Assembly (NCBI GenBank): GCA_030637775.1
Contig: DAOWFY010000126.1
Coordinates: 1-5,826, forward strand
Direction of reading: 5' to 3'
Origin: DAOVGU01 sp030637775 [NCBI: bacterium]
Lineage (GTDB): Bacteria; Ratteibacteria; UBA8468
DNA: 5,826 nucleotides
Within the stretch, counting starts at the first letter, position 1; the number at the start of each line of letters is the position of its first letter. Below the pieces are notes generated by a model. The model saw only the letters and a list, made by a program, of their open reading frames with translations, was not told where the DNA came from and did no database searches. Both the position numbers and the translations under genes were made by a program. This document shows, piece after piece, positions 1-5,826 of the stretch.

Positions 1-621
1 AATGTATTAAACCTTGCAATGGCTACAGAGACAAAACTTATCTATGCCTCCTCGGCGGCGGTCTATGGCAATGGACCGATACCAATGAAAGAGGATCGAA
101 AACTTTCTCCTTTAAATTCCTATGCCTCCTCCAAATGTATGATCGATAAGTTAGCAGAAAAGACAATGAAAGAAAAAAATATCTCAATCATAGGATTGCG
201 CTATTTTAATGTCTATGGTCCAAAAGAAGCGCATAAGGGTAAGTCGGCGAGTATGATCTGGCAACTGTCCAGAACAATAAAAGAAAAAAGGGTCCCCCGA
301 ATTTTCAAAGATGGGGAGCAGTCAAGGGACTTTATCTATGTTAAGGACGTTGTCTCGGCAAATATAAGAGCAATGGAAAGCAAAGAGAGGGGTATCTTTA
401 ACATCGGCACCGGTAAATCGGTGACCTTTAACAGAATTATTAAGATTCTAAATGAAATCTTTGGCACCTCCTTTCGACCAGAGTACTTTGATAATCCCTA
501 CAATTTCTATCAGAACCATACCCAGGCAGATACAAATCTTTCCTCCAAAATTTTAAAGTGGAAAAGCAGATTCTCCATTGAGGATGGAATCAAAGACTAT
601 TTTCCCTCCATAAAAATATGA
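1..621 (+). CDS. hldD: NAD(P)-dependent sugar-nucleotide epimerase, HldD-like (5' end outside window)
   Basis: The reading frame is open from base 1 to a TGA at 619-621, giving 206 visible residues; E. coli HldD is about 310, so the N-terminal Rossmann glycine motif is missing only because the window begins inside the gene. The visible part is an extended short-chain dehydrogenase. It has the YASSAAVYG segment (catalytic Ser region, 43-69), the YxxxK pair (Tyr codon 121-123, Lys 133-135), RYFNVYGP, then an H-K-G-K segment with Lys at 235-237 where HldD has its second active-site lysine, then RDFIYVKDV, GIFNIGTGKS and a late TQAD. This run of motifs matches ADP-L-glycero-D-manno-heptose 6-epimerase, which makes the heptose precursor for LPS inner core in the cytoplasm. 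A related epimerase of the GalE type is possible. Its stop overlaps the nikR start by four bases, so the two are probably co-transcribed, although no functional link is obvious. Confidence 0.8.
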   Translation, partial: NVLNLAMATETKLIYASSAAVYGNGPIPMKEDRKLSPLNSYASSKCMIDKLAEKTMKEKNISIIGLRYFNVYGPKEAHKGKSASMIWQLSRTIKEKRVPRIFKDGEQSRDFIYVKDVVSANIRAMESKERGIFNIGTGKSVTFNRIIKILNEIFGTSFRPEYFDNPYNFYQNHTQADTNLSSKILKWKSRFSIEDGIKDYFPSIKI

Positions 622-1037
622 AAGAGAAAGAGATAGTCCGTTTTGGGGTATCATTGGAAAAAGAACTTTTGCGGAGGTTCGACTCCCTTACCGGAGAGAA
701 AAAGTATCCTAATCGTTCTGAGGCAATCAGGGATTTAATCAGGGAGAACTTAGTCAAGAGGGAATGGATAAAGGGCGAAAAGGTGGCCGGCGTCATCACC
801 CTTGTTTATGACCATCACAAAAGGGAGCTGGTAAATACCTTAACCGATATCCAGCATCATTTTCATGAACTCATCATTTCCACCCAGCATATCCATTTAG
901 ATGAGGATAACTGTCTTGAGGTTGTGGTGGTAAAGGGAAAACCAAAGGAGGTCGGAAGTCTTGCCGACAGGCTTAAAGCCACCAAAGGCGTTAAGCACAG
1001 TTTCTTAATCATGACCACCATCGGAAAACAGATTTGA
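618..1037 (+). CDS. nikR: nickel-responsive transcriptional regulator NikR
   Basis: This 139-residue protein is of normal NikR length (E. coli 133). Residues 6-48 form a ribbon-helix-helix DNA-binding domain: the beta strand IVRFGVSL, then two helices containing NRSEAIRDLIRENL, the family signature. Residues 56-135 form the ACT-like nickel-binding and tetramerisation domain. By alignment to E. coli His76, His87, His89 and Cys95, all four square-planar nickel ligands are present as His80, His91, His93 and Cys99, within the QHHFHEL and QHIHLDEDNCLE segments. The protein reads more like Pyrococcus-type NikR (for example VAGVITLVY, CLEVVVVKG, GVKHSFLIMT) than the enterobacterial one. NikR normally binds DNA when nickel is sufficient and represses nickel uptake. 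The ATG at 618 overlaps the upstream TGA (ATGA) and has no clear Shine-Dalgarno, which suggests translational coupling. The likely target is the transport operon immediately downstream. Confidence 0.95.
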   Translation: MKEKEIVRFGVSLEKELLRRFDSLTGEKKYPNRSEAIRDLIRENLVKREWIKGEKVAGVITLVYDHHKRELVNTLTDIQHHFHELIISTQHIHLDEDNCLEVVVVKGKPKEVGSLADRLKATKGVKHSFLIMTTIGKQI

Positions 1038-1061
1038 CATTTAAGATTTTTTTGTTAAAAT
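1034..1061 (+). promoter_or_regulatory. sigma-70-type promoter for the receptor/transporter operon
   Basis: A perfect -35 hexamer TTGACA (1034-1039), overlapping the nikR stop codon, is followed by a 16-base AT-rich spacer. The -10 is TAAAAT (1056-1061), five of six matches to consensus, with a TG two bases before it (1053-1054) as in extended -10 promoters. Transcription would start near 1067-1069, leaving a leader of about 240 bases before the receptor start. The match is visible directly; activity is inferred, and the organism's sigma factor preference is unknown. Confidence 0.65.
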
Positions 1062-1073
1062 TTTTTTACTCTT

Positions 1074-1104
1074 TAGTAGCACGAAATTAAAAAATGTGCT
1101 ATTA
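1074..1104 (+). promoter_or_regulatory. putative NikR operator (spaced dyad)
   Basis: TAGTAGCAC (1074-1082) and GTGCTATTA (1096-1104) are inverted copies with one mismatch, separated by 13 AT-rich bases. The 27-31 base overall span matches NikR operators, whose half-sites lie about two helical turns apart (GTATGA-N16-TCATAC in E. coli spans 28; GTGTTAC-type half-sites with a similar spacer are described in other lineages). The dyad sits roughly at +6 to +37 of the predicted promoter, 37 bases after nikR, so bound NikR would overlap the start region or block the polymerase. As RNA it could also form a 9-pair stem with one G-U, but no U-run follows. Assignment to NikR is inference from geometry and neighbourhood. 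Confidence 0.55.
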
Positions 1105-1153
1105 TAAATGTAGAATAAAAATACCAGAATCAATCAGAGGGAGAAAGGAGGTG

Positions 1154-1309
1154 ATGATTAAAATATTGAAAATTAAAAATGCAGAAGGCAGCCTCACTCA
1201 AAAGCAAGGACTGCCTTCCGCTGGTACTCAGGTAGAAAATCCACCTAAGTCCGGTAATATTATACCGCATCTGGACTTAGGTGGCAACAGAAAAATTGAA
1301 AGGAGATGA
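1154..1309 (+). CDS. possible small leader ORF (51 aa), unrecognised
   Basis: The ATG at 1154 follows an exceptionally complete anti-16S match, AAAGGAGGTGAT (1144-1155), though the core GGAGG ends only two bases before the ATG. The frame is open for 51 codons and its TGA (1307-1309) ends two bases before the preferred receptor start at 1312, which would allow translational coupling. The frame also extends upstream to an ATG at 1094, but that start lacks a ribosome site and lies inside the dyad. The peptide begins MIKILKIKNAEG and has a polar, proline- and glycine-containing remainder with no signal peptide, membrane helix or motif that I recognise. Both leader hairpins lie within it. It may be a leader peptide acting with those structures, or a chance frame. 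Confidence 0.25.
   Translation: MIKILKIKNAEGSLTQKQGLPSAGTQVENPPKSGNIIPHLDLGGNRKIERR
1181..1221 (+). promoter_or_regulatory. leader hairpin 1
   Basis: GAAGGCAG (1184-1191) pairs perfectly with CTGCCTTC (1211-1218), and the stem continues outward after one mismatch with GC (1181-1182) to GC (1220-1221). Inside, CCT (1192-1194) can pair with AGG (1207-1209), leaving a loop of about 12 bases. No U-run follows, so it is not an intrinsic terminator. It lies in the predicted 5' leader of the receptor mRNA and is probably an RNA regulatory element or part of one; its class is not recognised. Confidence 0.45.
1226..1284 (+). promoter_or_regulatory. leader hairpin 2 with a competing alternative pairing
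   Basis: CCACCTAAGTCC (1241-1252) and GGACTTAGGTGG (1273-1284) form a perfect 12-base-pair stem. Within it GGTA (1253-1256) and TACC (1263-1266) form a small inner stem, and GCATCT is left as a one-sided bulge. ACTCAGGT (1226-1233) is an imperfect copy of the 3' arm and can pair with ACCTAAGT (1243-1250) with a single mismatch, so the two structures exclude each other. The 3' arm ends 16 bases before the receptor AGGAG and no U-run follows. This suggests a switch acting on translation or mRNA stability more than a classical terminator. The pairing is seen directly; the regulatory role is inferred. Confidence 0.5.
1298..1305 (+). promoter_or_regulatory. ribosome binding site of the TonB-dependent receptor
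   Basis: GAAAGGAG (1298-1305) touches the first in-frame ATG at 1306 but lies six bases before the second ATG at 1312. Normal spacing therefore favours 1312 as the real start, which shortens the protein by two residues (Met-Lys). Confidence 0.7.
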
Positions 1310-1311
1310 AA

Positions 1312-3582
1312 ATGTTGTCATTTAAGAGGTTAGCAGTTTTGGTAGTAGGGATTTTTCTAACTGTCCTTGTCCAAACTGCCCTGGCTGAAGAAAAAGAGGA
1401 AAAGGAAAAAGTCTTTAAGTTAGGAGATGTAGTAGTTACTGCCACTCGTTATGAGAAGGCGGTTGAGGATGCACCGGGAAGTGTTGTTGTAATTAGTAAG
1501 GAGGAAATAGAAAAATTCCACCTTGTAGGTGTGGATGAGGCGATTAAATTCTCCCCGGGGGTACACAGCCGCAGGTCAAAGGGACGCTGGTCTATCGGTG
1601 GAGGATTTTCTCTAAGGGGCTTTGACGATTATAAGCGTTGCCTTGTTTTGGTAGATGGACAGGAAAGACAGGACTACGATACCATTCCCATCGAGATAAT
1701 TGAAAGGATTGAAGTTGTAAAGGGTCCTTTCTCCGCCTTATATGGCGACAAAGCTCTTGGGGGAGTGGTAAATATCATTACCAAAACTCCGGAGGAAAGA
1801 ATACTTCAATTGGATGCCGGGGTAGAATCGTATAATACAGGGGTCTACAAACTCCTTTATGGTGATAAGACTGGTAAGTTAGATTTCCTGTTTTCTGTTC
1901 AAAAAAGTAAGTCGGATGGATATGTAAGTAACCTTTATACGGTCAAAGAGTATATCGGTAAGAGCGCTGCTACGGCAACGGTGACTGGCTGGGAAAAGAC
2001 CAAGGATAAATATGGAGATACATGTTATCTGGTAGGAGACAAGGGAAATAACTGGATGGAAAACGACCATTACAACCTAAAACTTGGTTATGAGCTCTCT
2101 CCCGAGGCAAAGCTCGGACTACAATTTTATTATAAGGATTACAACTATGGATATAAGAATGGAGAAAGTTACCTTATAGATACCGCTACCGGCAATGTGA
2201 TTCAGCCTGCTGTCGGTGAGAGTACCGTCGTGGAAATCAGTCCCGGCGGCACAAAACTCAAGGTATATGGTACAGGATTTGAATCCAGTTATGGTGGTGG
2301 ACCAGGCTATGGCTCCACCCTCTCCTATGACCAAGAACTTACCGAGAGAGTAACCATCGGTACCAAGCTCGGCTGGGATACCTATGACCACTGGTATGCC
2401 GATGCATACGATAATTACTCCACCACTGTATACAATAGACTCTGGACAGGCTTGCAGTCAACGATTGACCTTACTGATAAGCATATCCTTACAACCGGTC
2501 TAGACTGGCGAGATGAGGATGTAAATTGCGAGAAGTGGGAACTATCTGACTGGAAGGATGTCAAGAGCAAAACGACGTTAAACTTGGAAATGTCCGGTAA
2601 GGTCAATAGCTGGGGAATCTATCTTCAGGACGAGTGGAAGATCTTAGAAAACTTAAGCCTTTTTTCCGGGGGCAGGTATGATAAGTGGGGAACCTCGGAT
2701 GGAAAAAATTCTTACTGGAATTCGGCAACGGACAGCTACATCAGTGAATCCTTCTCCAGTAACAGCGAAGATAGTTTCAATCCTAAATTGGCAGCAGTTT
2801 ATAAACCGAAAGAAAAAACTACTCTTCGCTCTTCAATTGGCACAGCATTTCGTGGTCCAGAGGCAACCAATCTCTATAAGGACTGGTACTACTATGGCAA
2901 GCTTTATCGGGGTAATCCAGAACTTAAACCGGAAAAGAACCAGGCCTGGGAGATAGGGATTGACCAGAAATTATGGAAGGGTGCAAAGGGAGGAATAACC
3001 TACTTTGATAACAGAATGGATGACTATATCTGCCGAAGGACACTTACAGATAGCGAGGTTGATGAATACAATAGCACCTATGGAACAAGCTACGACTATG
3101 AAAAGATTACCCAATACGACAATGTCGCCGAGGCAAAGAGTGCAGGAGTTGAAATAGGTCTTGAGCAGAAATTACCGGCAGGCTTTTCTATCTTTACAAA
3201 CTGGACCTATAATGAAACAGAGGTTCTGAAGAACCCTGCCAATCCAGACTCAGTGGGGAAGCATCTGACATATGTCCCGGAGAATATCTTTAATACCGGG
3301 CTTAACTACACCAAAGAATTTGCTAAGAAGAGAAAACTTTCGGTCAGTTTGACTGGCCGATATGAGGACAAGGTATACACCAAAGATGATAACTCAGATA
3401 TTTATGACGGTGCCTATGGAGGGTATGAGGATTACTTTGTGGCAGATTTTAAACTAACATATGCCTTCGGAAAAAATTACGAGTTGATGTTTACGGTGGA
3501 TAATCTCTTTGACGAAGAGTATTATCAATACTACAAGTCGCCGGGGCGAACCTTCGGATTGATGACAAGAATTAAGTTCTGA
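1312..3582 (+). CDS. TonB-dependent outer-membrane receptor, probably for a nickel or other metal chelate
   Basis: The protein has 756 residues from the ATG at 1312 (758 from 1306). It has a signal peptide at residues 1-25 (basic MLSFKR, hydrophobic core, cleavage after ALA) and a short Glu/Lys-rich linker. A BtuB-like TonB box, DVVVTATR, lies at residues 39-46. A plug domain to about residue 165 includes LVLVDGQ and IERIEVVKGPFSALYG...GGVVNIIT. The remaining residues form a 22-strand-type beta barrel with Tyr/Trp/Asp-rich loops, the conserved GNPELKPEK segment near residue 534, a final VDNLFDEEYY motif and a terminal Phe as used by the BAM machinery. It should import a scarce ligand across the outer membrane using TonB-ExbBD energy; none of those partners is in the window. 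The family's sequence does not fix the ligand: cobalamin and siderophore receptors share this architecture. NikR and the spaced dyad upstream point to nickel, as for FrpB4 of Helicobacter pylori. The gene is intact. Confidence 0.92.
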   Translation: MLSFKRLAVLVVGIFLTVLVQTALAEEKEEKEKVFKLGDVVVTATRYEKAVEDAPGSVVVISKEEIEKFHLVGVDEAIKFSPGVHSRRSKGRWSIGGGFSLRGFDDYKRCLVLVDGQERQDYDTIPIEIIERIEVVKGPFSALYGDKALGGVVNIITKTPEERILQLDAGVESYNTGVYKLLYGDKTGKLDFLFSVQKSKSDGYVSNLYTVKEYIGKSAATATVTGWEKTKDKYGDTCYLVGDKGNNWMENDHYNLKLGYELSPEAKLGLQFYYKDYNYGYKNGESYLIDTATGNVIQPAVGESTVVEISPGGTKLKVYGTGFESSYGGGPGYGSTLSYDQELTERVTIGTKLGWDTYDHWYADAYDNYSTTVYNRLWTGLQSTIDLTDKHILTTGLDWRDEDVNCEKWELSDWKDVKSKTTLNLEMSGKVNSWGIYLQDEWKILENLSLFSGGRYDKWGTSDGKNSYWNSATDSYISESFSSNSEDSFNPKLAAVYKPKEKTTLRSSIGTAFRGPEATNLYKDWYYYGKLYRGNPELKPEKNQAWEIGIDQKLWKGAKGGITYFDNRMDDYICRRTLTDSEVDEYNSTYGTSYDYEKITQYDNVAEAKSAGVEIGLEQKLPAGFSIFTNWTYNETEVLKNPANPDSVGKHLTYVPENIFNTGLNYTKEFAKKRKLSVSLTGRYEDKVYTKDDNSDIYDGAYGGYEDYFVADFKLTYAFGKNYELMFTVDNLFDEEYYQYYKSPGRTFGLMTRIKF

Positions 3583-3595
3583 GAAAAAACATATT

Positions 3596-4510
3596 ATGAA
3601 TGGAAGAATTAAGTGGCTGGGTATAATTTTACTCATTATCCTGGCCACTTTTTCTTCCTATGCTTTGAGTTTACGGCGAGAAAACCTTGTAACCAACACC
3701 CTCCCCCTTACCCCCTCCCCTCAAGGGAGGGGTAAAGAGGGAATAGAAAGAATCATTTCTTTGTATAGTGCCGCTACCCAAATACTCTATGATCTGGGTA
3801 TGGCAAAGAGAATCGTTGGAGTGAATCGTAGCAGTAGCAACCCTCCTGGTGCAGAAAAGAAGGTACAGTTAGGACGTGGTTTCGGCCATATCAATATTGA
3901 GATGGTTATGGCTTTAGAGCCGGATATAGTATTTGCCTGGAGGCCAGACGGTAAAGTTCTTAAAGAAAAGGGAATTCCTGTATTTGTGCGCGATAGTGAT
4001 ACCTGCGATATAAAGAGAGTAATCGGCTTGGTAAGGGATATTGGAAAGGTTGTGGGAAAAGAAGTTCAAGCCGAAGAGATTGCTTATCATATGCAGGAAA
4101 GGATAGACAAAATAAAGAAAAAAACTGCATATATTCAGTCTAAACCGCTGGTCTATTTTGAATCAGGCTCTCTGGGACACACAAGAGGTCCTGGTTCCCT
4201 CACCTATGATTTAATTACTCTTGCTGGAGGAGAAAATATAGCCAATGACAAATTGGTTGCTTTTCCTCTTCTGAGCAATGAGTATATCATTACTAAGAAT
4301 CCAGAGATTATTATTGTGGAGGAATATGGCGCCTCCATTGAAAAGAGAATTGAAGAGATAAAGGGAAGAGATGGTTGGCAGGAGATTAAAGCAATCAAGA
4401 ACAACAAAATATTCAGAAGTCCTGTCTATTATACCGATTACGCTCCAAGATGCATTGAGGGATTGGAGCAGTTTGCCAAATGGTTCCATCCTGAGATATT
4501 CAAAGAATGA
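3596..4510 (+). CDS. periplasmic metal-chelate-binding protein of an ABC importer (BtuF/FecB/TroA-like)
   Basis: The protein has 304 residues. Residues 1-23 form a signal peptide (Arg/Lys near the start, then WLGIILLIILATFSSYA); there is no lipobox cysteine, so the protein should be soluble in the periplasm, as fits a Gram-negative. The mature part is a class III binding protein. The first lobe starts ERIISLYSAATQILYDLG near residue 51, contains INIEMVMALEPDIVFAW (99-115), and is joined by a long helix (about 153-176). The second lobe has the GPGSLTYDLITLAGGENIA signature (198-216), then NEYIITKNPEIIIVEEYG and a C-terminal helix with GLEQFAKWFHP. The usual BtuF YP-type ligand segment after the first strand is replaced by NRSSSNPPG, so cobalamin is not supported. 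Residues 35-49 are encoded by an embedded palindromic repeat. The start has no Shine-Dalgarno and lies 13 bases after the receptor stop; it is chosen because it supplies the signal peptide. The stop overlaps the permease start (ATGA). Confidence 0.85.
   Translation: MNGRIKWLGIILLIILATFSSYALSLRRENLVTNTLPLTPSPQGRGKEGIERIISLYSAATQILYDLGMAKRIVGVNRSSSNPPGAEKKVQLGRGFGHINIEMVMALEPDIVFAWRPDGKVLKEKGIPVFVRDSDTCDIKRVIGLVRDIGKVVGKEVQAEEIAYHMQERIDKIKKKTAYIQSKPLVYFESGSLGHTRGPGSLTYDLITLAGGENIANDKLVAFPLLSNEYIITKNPEIIIVEEYGASIEKRIEEIKGRDGWQEIKAIKNNKIFRSPVYYTDYAPRCIEGLEQFAKWFHPEIFKE
3611..3656 (+). terminator. intrinsic-terminator-like hairpin inside the binding-protein signal-peptide codons
   Basis: The 5' arm 3611-3627 (AAGTGGCTGGGTATAAT) pairs with 3635-3650 (ATTATCCTGGCCACTT). 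This gives 16 pairs, 14 Watson-Crick and two G-U, with one bulged T at 3622 and a seven-base loop. The 3' arm runs directly into TTTCTT, giving TTTTTCTT at 3649-3656, the form of a Rho-independent terminator. It begins 29 bases after the receptor stop and 15 bases after the binding-protein start, so it is inside coding sequence. It could reduce read-through into the ABC genes unless ribosomes translating the signal peptide disrupt it. Structure is seen; termination is inferred. Confidence 0.55.
3699..3741 (+). repeat. GC-rich palindromic repeat (REP/RPE-like) embedded in frame
   Basis: This C-rich then G-rich palindrome pairs TTACCCC (3708-3714) and TCCC (3716-3719) with GGGAGGGGTAA (3725-3735), with a single bulged C and a five-base CTCAA loop. 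An outer CCCTC (3699-3703) pairs with GAGGG (3737-3741). It is read as TLPLTPSPQGRGKEG, a peptide of the type (LTPSPQGRG) often produced when dispersed intergenic palindromes fall inside genes. Its base composition differs sharply from its surroundings. It lies between the signal peptide and the folded domain, where extra residues are tolerated. Confidence 0.65.
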
Positions 4511-5547
4511 AGGCCAAAGAATTTATTGCTAAAAGGCAATTTAAGTGGAGCCTAATTCTTATAGCTCTAATCGTCGGTTTATTAATGAGTATGATCTTTG
4601 CCCTAACTATCGGTTCAACTCCCATTCATCCTTTTGTGATAGCCAAGATACTTTTATCTAAAATAGTAAATCTCACCAAGGATTGGCCAGGATATTTTGA
4701 ATCAATAGTAATTGGGGTCAGGCTTCCCAGAATTTTGTTGGGAGCCCTTGTGGGGGCGGCCTTAGGAATTGCCGGTTGTAGTATGCAGGGAATGTTCAGG
4801 AATCCGATGGCTTCCCCTTATGTTACAGGAATTGCCTCGGGGAGTGCATTTGGCGCCTCTTTGGTGATAGCTTTGGGGTTAGGGTGGGGATGGGTTGGAC
4901 CCTCAGCATTTATATTTTCTGTCTCTACTGCATTTTTAGTCTATTTTATCGCGAAGACAAGAGGGAAAATTCCCGTGGGGACATTACTCTTAACCGGAAT
5001 TGCTATCTCACTTTTCTTCTCTGCTTTAGTCTCCTTTACTCAGTATGTTGCCGGGGAAAGGCAGCTACGCCAGATTGTTTTCTGGCTTATGGGTGGATTG
5101 TGGGCAAGCAACTGGAATAAGGTACTCAGTTCTTTCCCCTTAATTCTTTTAGGAAGTATCGGAATATCATTTTTCAGTCGGGATTTAAATCTTCTCCTTA
5201 CTGGTGAGGAATCGGCATTGGATTTAGGTGTTGGGGTGGAGAATGTAAGAAAAATGGTTCTTGTCTTGGCCTCTTTAATTACGGCAAGTGCTGTAGCCGC
5301 CTGTGGCATAATTGGATTTGTGGGCTTAATCATTCCCCACATCATGAGGATTTTGGTTGGACCCGACCATCGGATACTTCTACCCTCTTCTTTCTTAGGA
5401 GGAGCGATATTCTTAATCTGGACAGATACGCTTGCCCGCAGAATCATTGCCCCTACAGAACTGCCAGTAGGGATTATTACCGCAATTTTGGGAGTGCCAT
5501 TTTTCCTCTTTCTTCTCCGTAAGAGAAAGAGGCAAATAGGATTTTAA
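4507..5547 (+). CDS. FecCD/BtuC-type ABC transporter permease
   Basis: The protein has 346 residues, typical for the FecCD family, which forms a homodimeric channel with about ten transmembrane helices per subunit. Hydrophobic segments run from residue 15 to the C-terminus. Family motifs appear in order: GVRLPRILLGALVGAALGIAG (70-90), MQGMFRNPMASPYVTGIASGSAFGA (93-117), IVFWLMGGL (190-198), GEESALDLGV (233-242, the region contacting the ATPase), GFVGLIIPHIMRILVGPDHRILLPSS (270-295) and ELPVGIITAILGVPFFLFLL (318-337). The tail is basic (RKRKRQIGF), in line with a cytoplasmic C-terminus. It should move the chelate or metal delivered by the upstream binding protein across the inner membrane. Its ATG overlaps the binding-protein stop by four bases and its TAA overlaps the ATPase ATG by one base, so the three are translationally coupled. 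The family carries siderophores, haem and cobalamin, and the sequence alone does not tell which. Confidence 0.93.
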   Translation: MKAKEFIAKRQFKWSLILIALIVGLLMSMIFALTIGSTPIHPFVIAKILLSKIVNLTKDWPGYFESIVIGVRLPRILLGALVGAALGIAGCSMQGMFRNPMASPYVTGIASGSAFGASLVIALGLGWGWVGPSAFIFSVSTAFLVYFIAKTRGKIPVGTLLLTGIAISLFFSALVSFTQYVAGERQLRQIVFWLMGGLWASNWNKVLSSFPLILLGSIGISFFSRDLNLLLTGEESALDLGVGVENVRKMVLVLASLITASAVAACGIIGFVGLIIPHIMRILVGPDHRILLPSSFLGGAIFLIWTDTLARRIIAPTELPVGIITAILGVPFFLFLLRKRKRQIGF

Positions 5548-5826
5548 TGAAACTCAAAGTTAAAAAGGTAAGTTTCTCCTACGATAGCGTAGAGGCATTA
5601 GAGAACATTTCTTTTGAATTAGAGCAAGAGGAAATTTTAGGAATAGTTGGACCCAATGGGTCGGGTAAAACCACTCTTCTCAGGTGTATCAACCGGGTGC
5701 TAAAGCCAAAGACCGGAGTCGTATTCCTTGATGAGGTAAACCTATCCTTAATAAGACAAAAGGAGATCGCCAGGAGAATAGGGGTTGTCCCACAAAATTC
5801 CACAAACAGATTTCCCTTTACCGTCT
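5547..5826 (+). CDS. ABC transporter ATP-binding protein, FecE/BtuD-like (3' end outside window)
   Basis: The ATG at 5547 shares its A with the permease TAA (TAATG), and the frame stays open to the window end, giving 93 complete codons of a protein that usually has about 250-270. Visible parts are the A-loop aromatic (Tyr12, in VSFSYDSVEAL), the Walker A P-loop GPNGSGKTT (35-43) and the Q-loop glutamine in GVVPQN (Gln83). The signature LSGG, Walker B and switch histidine would lie beyond the window. Together with the two preceding genes it makes a complete binding protein, permease and ATPase importer; it would power transport by ATP hydrolysis at the inner membrane's cytoplasmic face. Confidence 0.95.
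   Translation, partial: MKLKVKKVSFSYDSVEALENISFELEQEEILGIVGPNGSGKTTLLRCINRVLKPKTGVVFLDEVNLSLIRQKEIARRIGVVPQNSTNRFPFTV

Follow-up and report, generated by a model that had tools for sequence, protein, structure and literature searches.

The 5,826-nt contig DAOWFY010000126.1 of a Ratteibacteria genome (assembly GCA_030637775.1), analysed here over its entire length (5826/5826 bases; hereafter the window), carries nikR followed by the genes of a TonB-dependent outer-membrane receptor and of a FecBCD-type ATP-binding cassette (ABC) importer. Sequence comparison leads us to propose, with somewhat better than even confidence, that these genes open a NikR-repressed nickel-acquisition operon, which would import a nickel tetrapyrrole and strip off its metal with a CobN-type chelatase encoded past the contig end. 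Nickel acquisition is very probably the function of the operon; we infer strongly that nickel is the metal carried, and moderately both that a tetrapyrrole is the carrier and that the metal is removed rather than inserted. The genes, their order and conservation, the operator, a separate vitamin B12 operon, the absence of CbiC and the presence of carbon monoxide (CO) dehydrogenase were read directly from the genomes.

In the proposed mechanism, apo-NikR would leave the operator at 1076-1102 when nickel is scarce. The receptor, energised by the ExbB-ExbD pair of the operon (and TonB), would bring a nickel chelate, likeliest a nickel tetrapyrrole, into the periplasm, and the FecB-type protein and FecCD-ATPase transporter would carry it into the cytoplasm. 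There, a ChlI/D-type AAA+ ATPase would power a CobN-like H-subunit, which has a Cys-rich metal site, to strip the nickel by dechelation; the freed nickel would supply CO dehydrogenase and shut the operon via NikR.

Organization of the locus

The source genome (G000; 1.4 Mb, 177 contigs, 84% complete) is fragmented. Its sister genome G001, the sole other listed member of the genus, has the region on one 17.9-kb contig. The window contains the following features:

1-621, + strand: hldD-like sugar epimerase gene, C-terminal part (TIGR02197, 220.2 bits over part of the model, cut-off 274.6)
618-1037, + strand: nikR, nickel-responsive ribbon-helix-helix repressor, 139 aa (Pfam NikR_C and RHH_1; PRK04460; PDB 2bj1)
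1034-1061, + strand: promoter-like site of sigma-70 type for the receptor operon, TTGACA-N16-TAAAAT (11/12 consensus positions)
1076-1102, no strand assigned: candidate NikR operator GTAGCAC-N13-GTGCTAT, a palindrome just 3' of the predicted transcription start
1160-1305, + strand: structured 5' leader of the receptor gene, candidate RNA switch (folding z -5.1)
1306-3582, + strand: TonB-dependent outer-membrane receptor, 758 aa (Pfam Plug and TonB_dep_Rec_b-barrel)
3596-4510, + strand: periplasmic binding protein of the FecB/BtuF/heme-binding-protein fold, 304 aa (Pfam Peripla_BP_2; predicted local distance difference test score, pLDDT, of the model 88.2)
4507-5547, + strand: FecCD-type permease, 346 aa (Pfam FecCD, 310.7 bits)
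5547-5826, + strand: ABC ATPase, first 93 codons, cut at the contig end (Pfam ABC_tran)

Open reading frames and Pfam matches confirm the same-strand run of nikR, receptor, binding protein, FecCD permease and ATPase described in the original prediction, which had been made from the window alone. The nikR and receptor genes are 268 nt apart and the receptor and binding-protein genes 13 nt; the binding-protein stop and the permease start overlap, as do the permease stop and the ATPase start. The gene order from hldD to FecCD is kept in G001 with 85-97% protein identity. Since it is kept there and, with nikR first, in G397 of the Elusimicrobiota, this order is not a matter of chance; the conserved adjacency of nikR, TonB receptor and FecBCD that had been proposed as a check is thereby found in a second phylum. 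The same prediction saw the entire uptake route in one locus: the order holds, but the description was incomplete because the contig ends inside the ATPase gene and the operon is longer. The hldD-like gene, which we judge to be a neighbour outside the system, also lies 5' of nikR in G001 and is absent from that place in G003.

A candidate NikR operator at the receptor promoter

The repressor matches Pfam NikR_C with 114.6 bits (cut-off 22) together with RHH_1, and NCBIfam PRK04460 with 187.3 bits (cut-off 105), the match to TIGR02793 staying under its cut-off. Alignment to the solved NikR 2bj1 (E 1.9e-41) shows that H80, H91, H93 and C99 are kept. These we take to be the four nickel ligands, in line with the intact nikR with a full ligand set that had been read from the window.

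The region holds three promoter-like sites against 0.9 expected, and the hexamers of the site at 1034-1061 are identical in G001. The operator, a 27-bp palindrome, begins 14 nt past this site. We drew the consensus GTAGCAC-N13-GTGCTAC from G000 and G001 and searched it in 35 related genomes. With at most one mismatch the pattern matched once in the window and never in 200 shuffles; it is kept in G001, whose single mismatch differs from that of the window. Five copies with 0-1 mismatch occur in the 35 genomes (G000, G001, G003, G007 and G026), all on nikR contigs. The last three genomes took no part in making the consensus, and the probability that their sites would each land on a nikR contig by chance is about 5e-8 (from rounded genome sizes). 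The copy in G003 is perfect (0 mismatches) and precedes a DUF4198 gene, presumably nikK. In G007 and G026, the operator precedes a pseudopilin-like gene (recognised by eye) and a ZnuABC-like operon, then a methyltransferase gene and nikR (Pfam matches for G007). There (L104 3047-7200; L103 5018-868, - strand), it overlaps by eye a TTGACA/TAAAAT-like promoter of the pseudopilin-ZnuA-ATPase-ABC3-methyltransferase-nikR run, and this ZnuABC-type system is perhaps also under NikR.

Published NikR signals are inverted repeats of 27-28 bp with a spacer of 13-14 nt, the same geometry as the window operator, and the Desulfotalea psychrophila site, in the reversed form GTAACAC-N13/14-GTGTTAC, resembles its half sites (PMC545781; papers are cited here and below from excerpts). 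A palindrome one mismatch away from the delta-proteobacterial NikR consensus lies upstream of a second nikR in G397. The control of the uptake locus by NikR that had been suggested from gene adjacency is supported by the palindrome at the receptor promoter, and on these sequence grounds the receptor operon is very likely NikR-controlled.

Class I chelatase genes past the contig end

In G001, the ATPase gene is followed by genes for a 341-aa Gate-domain protein, a 1295-aa CobN, a 660-aa ChlI/D-type AAA+/VWA protein (ChlID), ExbB and ExbD. The CobN scores 1813 bits against NF004646 (cut-off 1468, passed in 2 of 14 control genomes) and the AAA+ protein 836.5 bits against TIGR02442 (cut-off 779.45). 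G001 thus encodes both parts that define a class I chelatase, a CobN-Mg_chel H-subunit and its AAA+/VWA partner. The source genome carries the same genes on two contigs, C59 (ATPase end, Gate-domain protein, N-terminal part of CobN) and C145 (CobN end, ChlID, ExbB, ExbD, TonB), whose proteins are 86-96% identical to those of G001. Both contigs were placed by similarity to G001 and left unjoined, the middle of CobN being unseen in G000. A TonB gene accompanies the cassette in four genomes, identified either from Pfam (G000, G061) or from similarity (G033, G397).

The original prediction, a nickel chelate taken up as a nickelophore or other small ligand, missed the chelatase genes because the contig ends before them. 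Its nickel part stands; because the operon continues into CobN and ChlID, a metallated tetrapyrrole becomes a likelier ligand than a small nickelophore.

The model of G001 CobN over residues 380-1295 (pLDDT 77.9, with the Cys-loop stretch below 50) is closer to solved structures of CobN and ChlH (CobN 7c6o, Z 53.8, root-mean-square deviation 3.7 over 747; 4zhj, Z 50.1) than to the heme dechelatase HmuS (9d26, Z 38.0). In HmuS, His538 is described as catalytic and D1208-H1209 as a cation site (PMC12583661). The equivalent of His538, the His of GxHG, is kept in 10 of 10 aligned CobN-type proteins and is H562 in G001. The five cassette-type CobN (G001, G033, the second copy of G061, the first copy of G397, and G062) have GCxGxxCDGxVCKILHDP in common, including CX4CX4C, and all carry Cys-Cys at the D1208-H1209 place, as counted back from the GGM motif. 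None of the five other CobN (G039, G048, the first copy of G061, the second copy of G397, and G259) has these Cys motifs, and they show D-D or D-H instead. The CobN fragments of G000 stop short of the D1208-H1209 place.

The Gate-domain membrane protein (PF07670; L033 7303-8328, - strand, in G001) stands between ATPase and CobN in G000, G001, G033, G061 and G397, the five cassettes where that part is visible, and might transport either the metal or the ring once emptied. On contig C145 of G000, a Fur-family gene lies right past TonB and is followed by a FeoB-like gene recognised by eye (L088 1027-4631), and a transposase-like gene, also by eye, lies at the contig end (L088 1-900).

Distribution of the cassette

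CobN matches at E <=1e-20 were found in 5 of 61 genomes (G000, G001 and G033; G039 and G048 at 33-34% identity), and at <=1e-100 in 3 of 340 Elusimicrobiota genomes (G061, G397 and G259). In G397, the order is nikR, receptor, binding protein, permease, ATPase, Gate, CobN, ChlID, ExbB, ExbD, TonB, with a receptor that aligns to that of the window in two parts only (40% and 26%). The contig of G033 begins inside the ATPase gene and continues with Gate, CobN, ChlID, ExbB, ExbD and TonB. In the Poribacteria genome G062, one contig carries receptor, binding protein, permease and ATPase, and another a CobN (46%). G061 shows a longer arrangement: nikR, CbiM/NikM, DUF2162, ExbB, DUF2149 and an HmuS-like CobN precede the cassette from receptor to ExbD, and TonB follows. 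The DUF2162, ExbB and DUF2149 genes are presumably hmuT, hmuU and hmuV. This first CobN of G061, with hydrophobic N- and C-terminal stretches, has HmuS (9d26) as its top solved relative (3e-145).

Leaving aside G033, whose contig begins inside the ATPase gene, and G062, whose contigs are short, nikR stands in front in all 4 cassettes with a visible upstream end. It is adjacent in G000, G001 and G397, and about 6.7 kb upstream in G061, where the CbiM/NikM gene and the hmu-like genes separate it from the cassette. The CobN of G039, G048 and G259 has no nikR in the stretch examined. Among plasmids, 159 records matched CobN; the best reached about 32% identity, and none as much as 60%.

The second nikR of G397 (L133 7672-13844, - strand) is followed by ChlID and a CobN with the D-H pair and has the NikR-type palindrome upstream; no transporter gene was recognised by eye in the 20-kb stretch inspected.

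Ligand of the transporter

Family models place the transporter proteins in known classes. The top NCBIfam model of the receptor is the TonB-hemin receptor TIGR01785 (229 bits, under the cut-off of 316.85). The binding protein scores 86.5 against the BtuF equivalog cut-off of 234, and the permease falls below the cut-offs of both BtuC models (PRK09535, 338.8 against 461 bits; the other, 218.8 against 334). The solved folds nearest to the binding-protein model are the heme-binding proteins 2r7a (Z 26.3) and 2r79 (Z 26.1) and the putative iron-binding protein 4m7o (Z 26.1), with BtuF (Z 24.6) and nickel-loaded CeuE (Z 24.5) slightly farther away. At the level of this model the ligand is unreadable from the fold, as heme, B12, Ni-His and iron binders are not separated. 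A metal pocket formed by His98, His165 and His195, put forward in the original prediction, was rejected: none of the three residues is present in the binding proteins of G061 and G397, and H165 is altered even in G001.

Two other ligands were weighed on this evidence. Uptake of a small nickelophore, Ni-His2 or similar as with the Helicobacter receptors and CeuE/NiuDE, the chelatase genes serving something else, has the NiuBDE precedent (PMC5140060), and the fold of nickel-loaded CeuE ranks near the top one (Z 24.5 compared with 26.3). We nevertheless regard it as unlikely: CobN and ChlID come after the transporter genes in G000, G001, G061 and G397, the second nikR of G397 heads ChlID and CobN alone, and the proposed His ligands are not conserved. 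Heme-iron uptake with an HmuS-like enzyme, the nearby nikR being incidental, would agree with the hemin-receptor model that tops the receptor's matches below cut-off, with the heme-binding proteins among the nearest folds and with the Fur-family and FeoB-like genes after the operon in G000. The NikR operator at the promoter, the association with nikR in two phyla and a cassette CobN lacking the D-H pair of HmuS make this explanation very improbable.

Vitamin B12 and nickel enzymes

The window holds no cobalamin riboswitch up to E 1, its one sub-threshold match being to an unrelated family, and the cassette loci of G001, G033, G061, G062 and G397 yield no Rfam match at gathering score. The only cobalamin riboswitch among six loci scanned (L033-L037 and L043) is at L034, on contig C32 of the source genome, where it heads cobU-, cobT-, cobS-, aminotransferase- and cbiB-like genes (by eye), a second FecBCD set and a TonB-like gene. 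By gene content, the cell has another operon for B12 salvage. The earlier remark that the window has no recognisable cobalamin riboswitch thus holds, the B12 importer being separate and having its own. Plain B12 import was rejected as the role of the window operon, since riboswitch and salvage genes sit at this paralogous C32 operon. CbiC, one marker of corrin-ring synthesis, was not found in G000 or G001 and occurs in 2 of the 35 genomes (G014 and G032), neither of which has a CobN match; on the CbiC evidence only, the cell probably does not make the corrin ring. A CobN acting as cobaltochelatase in the cell's own corrin synthesis was rejected on the absence of CbiC from G000 and G001, one marker gene, with G000 84% complete.

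CO dehydrogenase (TIGR01702), a nickel enzyme, is over its cut-off in 5 of 7 genomes (G000, G001, G061, G062 and G397). NiFe hydrogenase gave only a 69-position match in G000 and none in G001, and found little support as their main nickel enzyme. The search for co-occurring nickel enzymes that had been suggested is thus answered by CO dehydrogenase in both genomes and not by hydrogenase.

Points against nickel dechelation

Several observations weigh against nickel-tetrapyrrole import and dechelation under NikR. With up to two mismatches, the operator pattern occurs at 15 sites, spread over 11 genomes, and its reversed control at 32, for which there is no breakdown by mismatch number; because these counts are not in excess, the support for the operator is closeness of match and location only. 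In G061, no operator was recognised. NikR of this class may answer another metal, given the same operator before the ZnuABC-like operon of G007 and G026, and a zinc role has been suggested for such a NikR beside ZnuABC in Methanothermobacter (PMC3087415). CO dehydrogenase is not found in G033 despite its cassette, and is weak and under cut-off in G003. Corrin-ring synthesis was judged from CbiC alone, a single marker gene. Fragmentation of the assemblies and the small number of them that carry the cassette also count against it. As for the direction of the reaction, the cassette CobN is nearer to CobN and ChlH than to HmuS and lacks the HmuS D1208-H1209 pair. It is accompanied by an ATPase, like the inserting chelatases and unlike HmuS, which requires NADH, not ATP (PMC12583661).

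The last points bear on the possibility that nickel (with a small chelator) or a metal-free tetrapyrrole is imported and that CobN-ChlID inserts nickel, yielding an undescribed bacterial nickel-tetrapyrrole cofactor. CobN and ChlID are of the ATP-driven inserting type, with NF004646 and TIGR02442 both over cut-off in G001, the link to NikR holds equally, and in methanogens, CobNS-related proteins had at one time been put forward as the nickel chelatases for coenzyme F430 (PMC3087415). We consider insertion rather improbable: inspection of the listed operons by eye revealed no ring-making genes, salvage import is a better match for an outer-membrane receptor that has its own energy transducer, and the G061 operon includes an HmuS-like CobN.

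The main point against nickel comes from a plasmid of Trichlorobacter lovleyi SZ, where two tandem cobalamin riboswitches lie directly before a homologous receptor (37% identical in matched pieces, 35% over 766 columns by blastp). The module (L142 17520-27502) runs receptor, DUF2162, ExbB, DUF2149, periplasmic-type CobN, ExbB, ExbD, TonB and second receptor, and is set among cobalamin genes and a cobalt transporter of the energy-coupling-factor type (cbiQ annotated). The CobN of this module and the HmuS-like CobN of G061 share 40% identity; the 38 kb displayed contain no annotated FecBCD or ChlID. The case that the original prediction named as contrary, homologous operons behind cobalamin riboswitches, is therefore found for receptor and CobN, and not for FecBCD and ChlID. 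The T. lovleyi module also resembles hmu operons.

By homology, this receptor family can serve cobalt or corrinoids, and salvage of a corrinoid or cobalt tetrapyrrole has to be weighed for the window as well, with CobN removing or exchanging cobalt and NikR sensing or tolerating it. The T. lovleyi module behind its riboswitches, with a cobalt transporter on the same plasmid stretch, speaks for this, as does the BtuC model PRK09535 being the permease's top NCBIfam match, though under cut-off. Against it stand the separate riboswitch-linked B12 salvage and BtuFCD-like operon of the same genome, the lack of a cobalamin riboswitch in the window or, at gathering score, in the five cassette-genome loci, and NikR with its operator, to which the CbiM/NikM gene adjoining nikR in G061 may be added. 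We give corrinoid salvage little credence. By analogy with CbiMNQO and NikMNQO, we read the same kind of module, linked to cobalt in T. lovleyi and to nickel in G061 (nikR, CbiM/NikM), as one mechanism for two metals, an analogy that leaves room for corrinoid substrates here.

Relation to known systems

Known nickel acquisition proceeds by uptake of the free ion, of Ni-His or of small metallophores. The cassette resembles the hmuYRSTUV heme operon of Bacteroidota in combining a TonB receptor and a CobN-superfamily protein (HmuS) in one operon (PMC12583661, PMC13227078), in the DUF2162, ExbB and DUF2149 genes of G061 and in the kept His538 equivalent; it differs by NikR control, a FecBCD importer, a cytoplasmic-type CobN with Cys motifs and a ChlI/D ATPase. 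It shares with Helicobacter, where FrpB4 or NikH works with CeuE/NiuBDE, a NikR-linked TonB receptor and a FecBCD-type nickel importer, whereas the Helicobacter genes are separate, Ni-His2 is the proposed ligand and the excerpt mentions no chelatase (PMC5140060). A one-locus arrangement of this kind has a partial precedent, since Caldithrix abyssi has nikR, TonB receptors, a NikR-like site and cbi/nikMNOQ homologues together; there the importer is of NikMNQO type and, in the excerpt, no chelatase is mentioned (PMC5317091). In cable bacteria, a TonB receptor lies upstream of a Nik/Opp/Dpp operon (PMC11247825). With the class I chelatases CobNST/ChlHID the cassette shares CobN and ChlID over model cut-offs in G001 (NCBIfam CobN model PRK05989.2-4), and differs by a Cys pair at the metal site and by the lack of recognised corrin or chlorophyll genes alongside. 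BtuB-BtuFCD import of B12 uses the same transporter class and fold; the cassette has a NikR operator instead of a cobalamin riboswitch and stays below the equivalog cut-offs. We did not find a NikR-controlled receptor-FecBCD-CobN operon reported in the literature searched, although an earlier prediction is possible in older work, including the review of Schauer, Rodionov and de Reuse. The parts belong to known families; their combination under NikR was not met there.

If correct, nickel-repressed import coupled to a class I chelatase would add the scavenging of metal from ring cofactors to nickel acquisition, in parallel with heme-iron dechelation. Many CobN-like proteins, chiefly archaeal and also from anaerobes, have no nearby cob genes and are of unclear function (PMC12583661, 2025), and for these the proposal would provide a testable function. 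More tentatively, bacteria might harvest nickel from the tetrapyrroles of dead methanogens (F430 or its breakdown products) in a nickel counterpart of the hmu system, the orphan CobN-like proteins of methanogens and anaerobes being nickel (de)chelatases. This would suggest a possible fate for F430 in anoxic sediments.

The receptor leader and a C-rich repeat

The receptor gene is preceded by a structured leader in four loci from two phyla (window 1160-1305; L033 13430-13560, - strand; L131 8960-9104; L083 9860-10003), with the first hairpin at the same place and GGTRCT and AAGYCC in common. AAGYCC has alternative partners, GGTRCTT on its upstream side and, in the single folds, GGRCTTA or GGGCT downstream of it; the variable base within AAGYCC changes in step with the base opposite (n=4 leaders; that of G061 folds weakly, z -1.1). 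In the consensus fold of the four leaders, 4 of 18 pairs are altered on both sides in some leader, the covariation term (+0.25) is close to zero, and no Rfam match was found for the leader in the window and cassette loci searched. Its alternative pairings make a conformational RNA switch possible.

Near the start of the binding-protein gene, a C-rich inverted repeat at 3698-3735 (- strand) gives a sub-threshold Rfam match to whalefall-1 (20.6 against 37 bits). Since the stretch that it encodes is missing in G001, this repeat may be an insertion.

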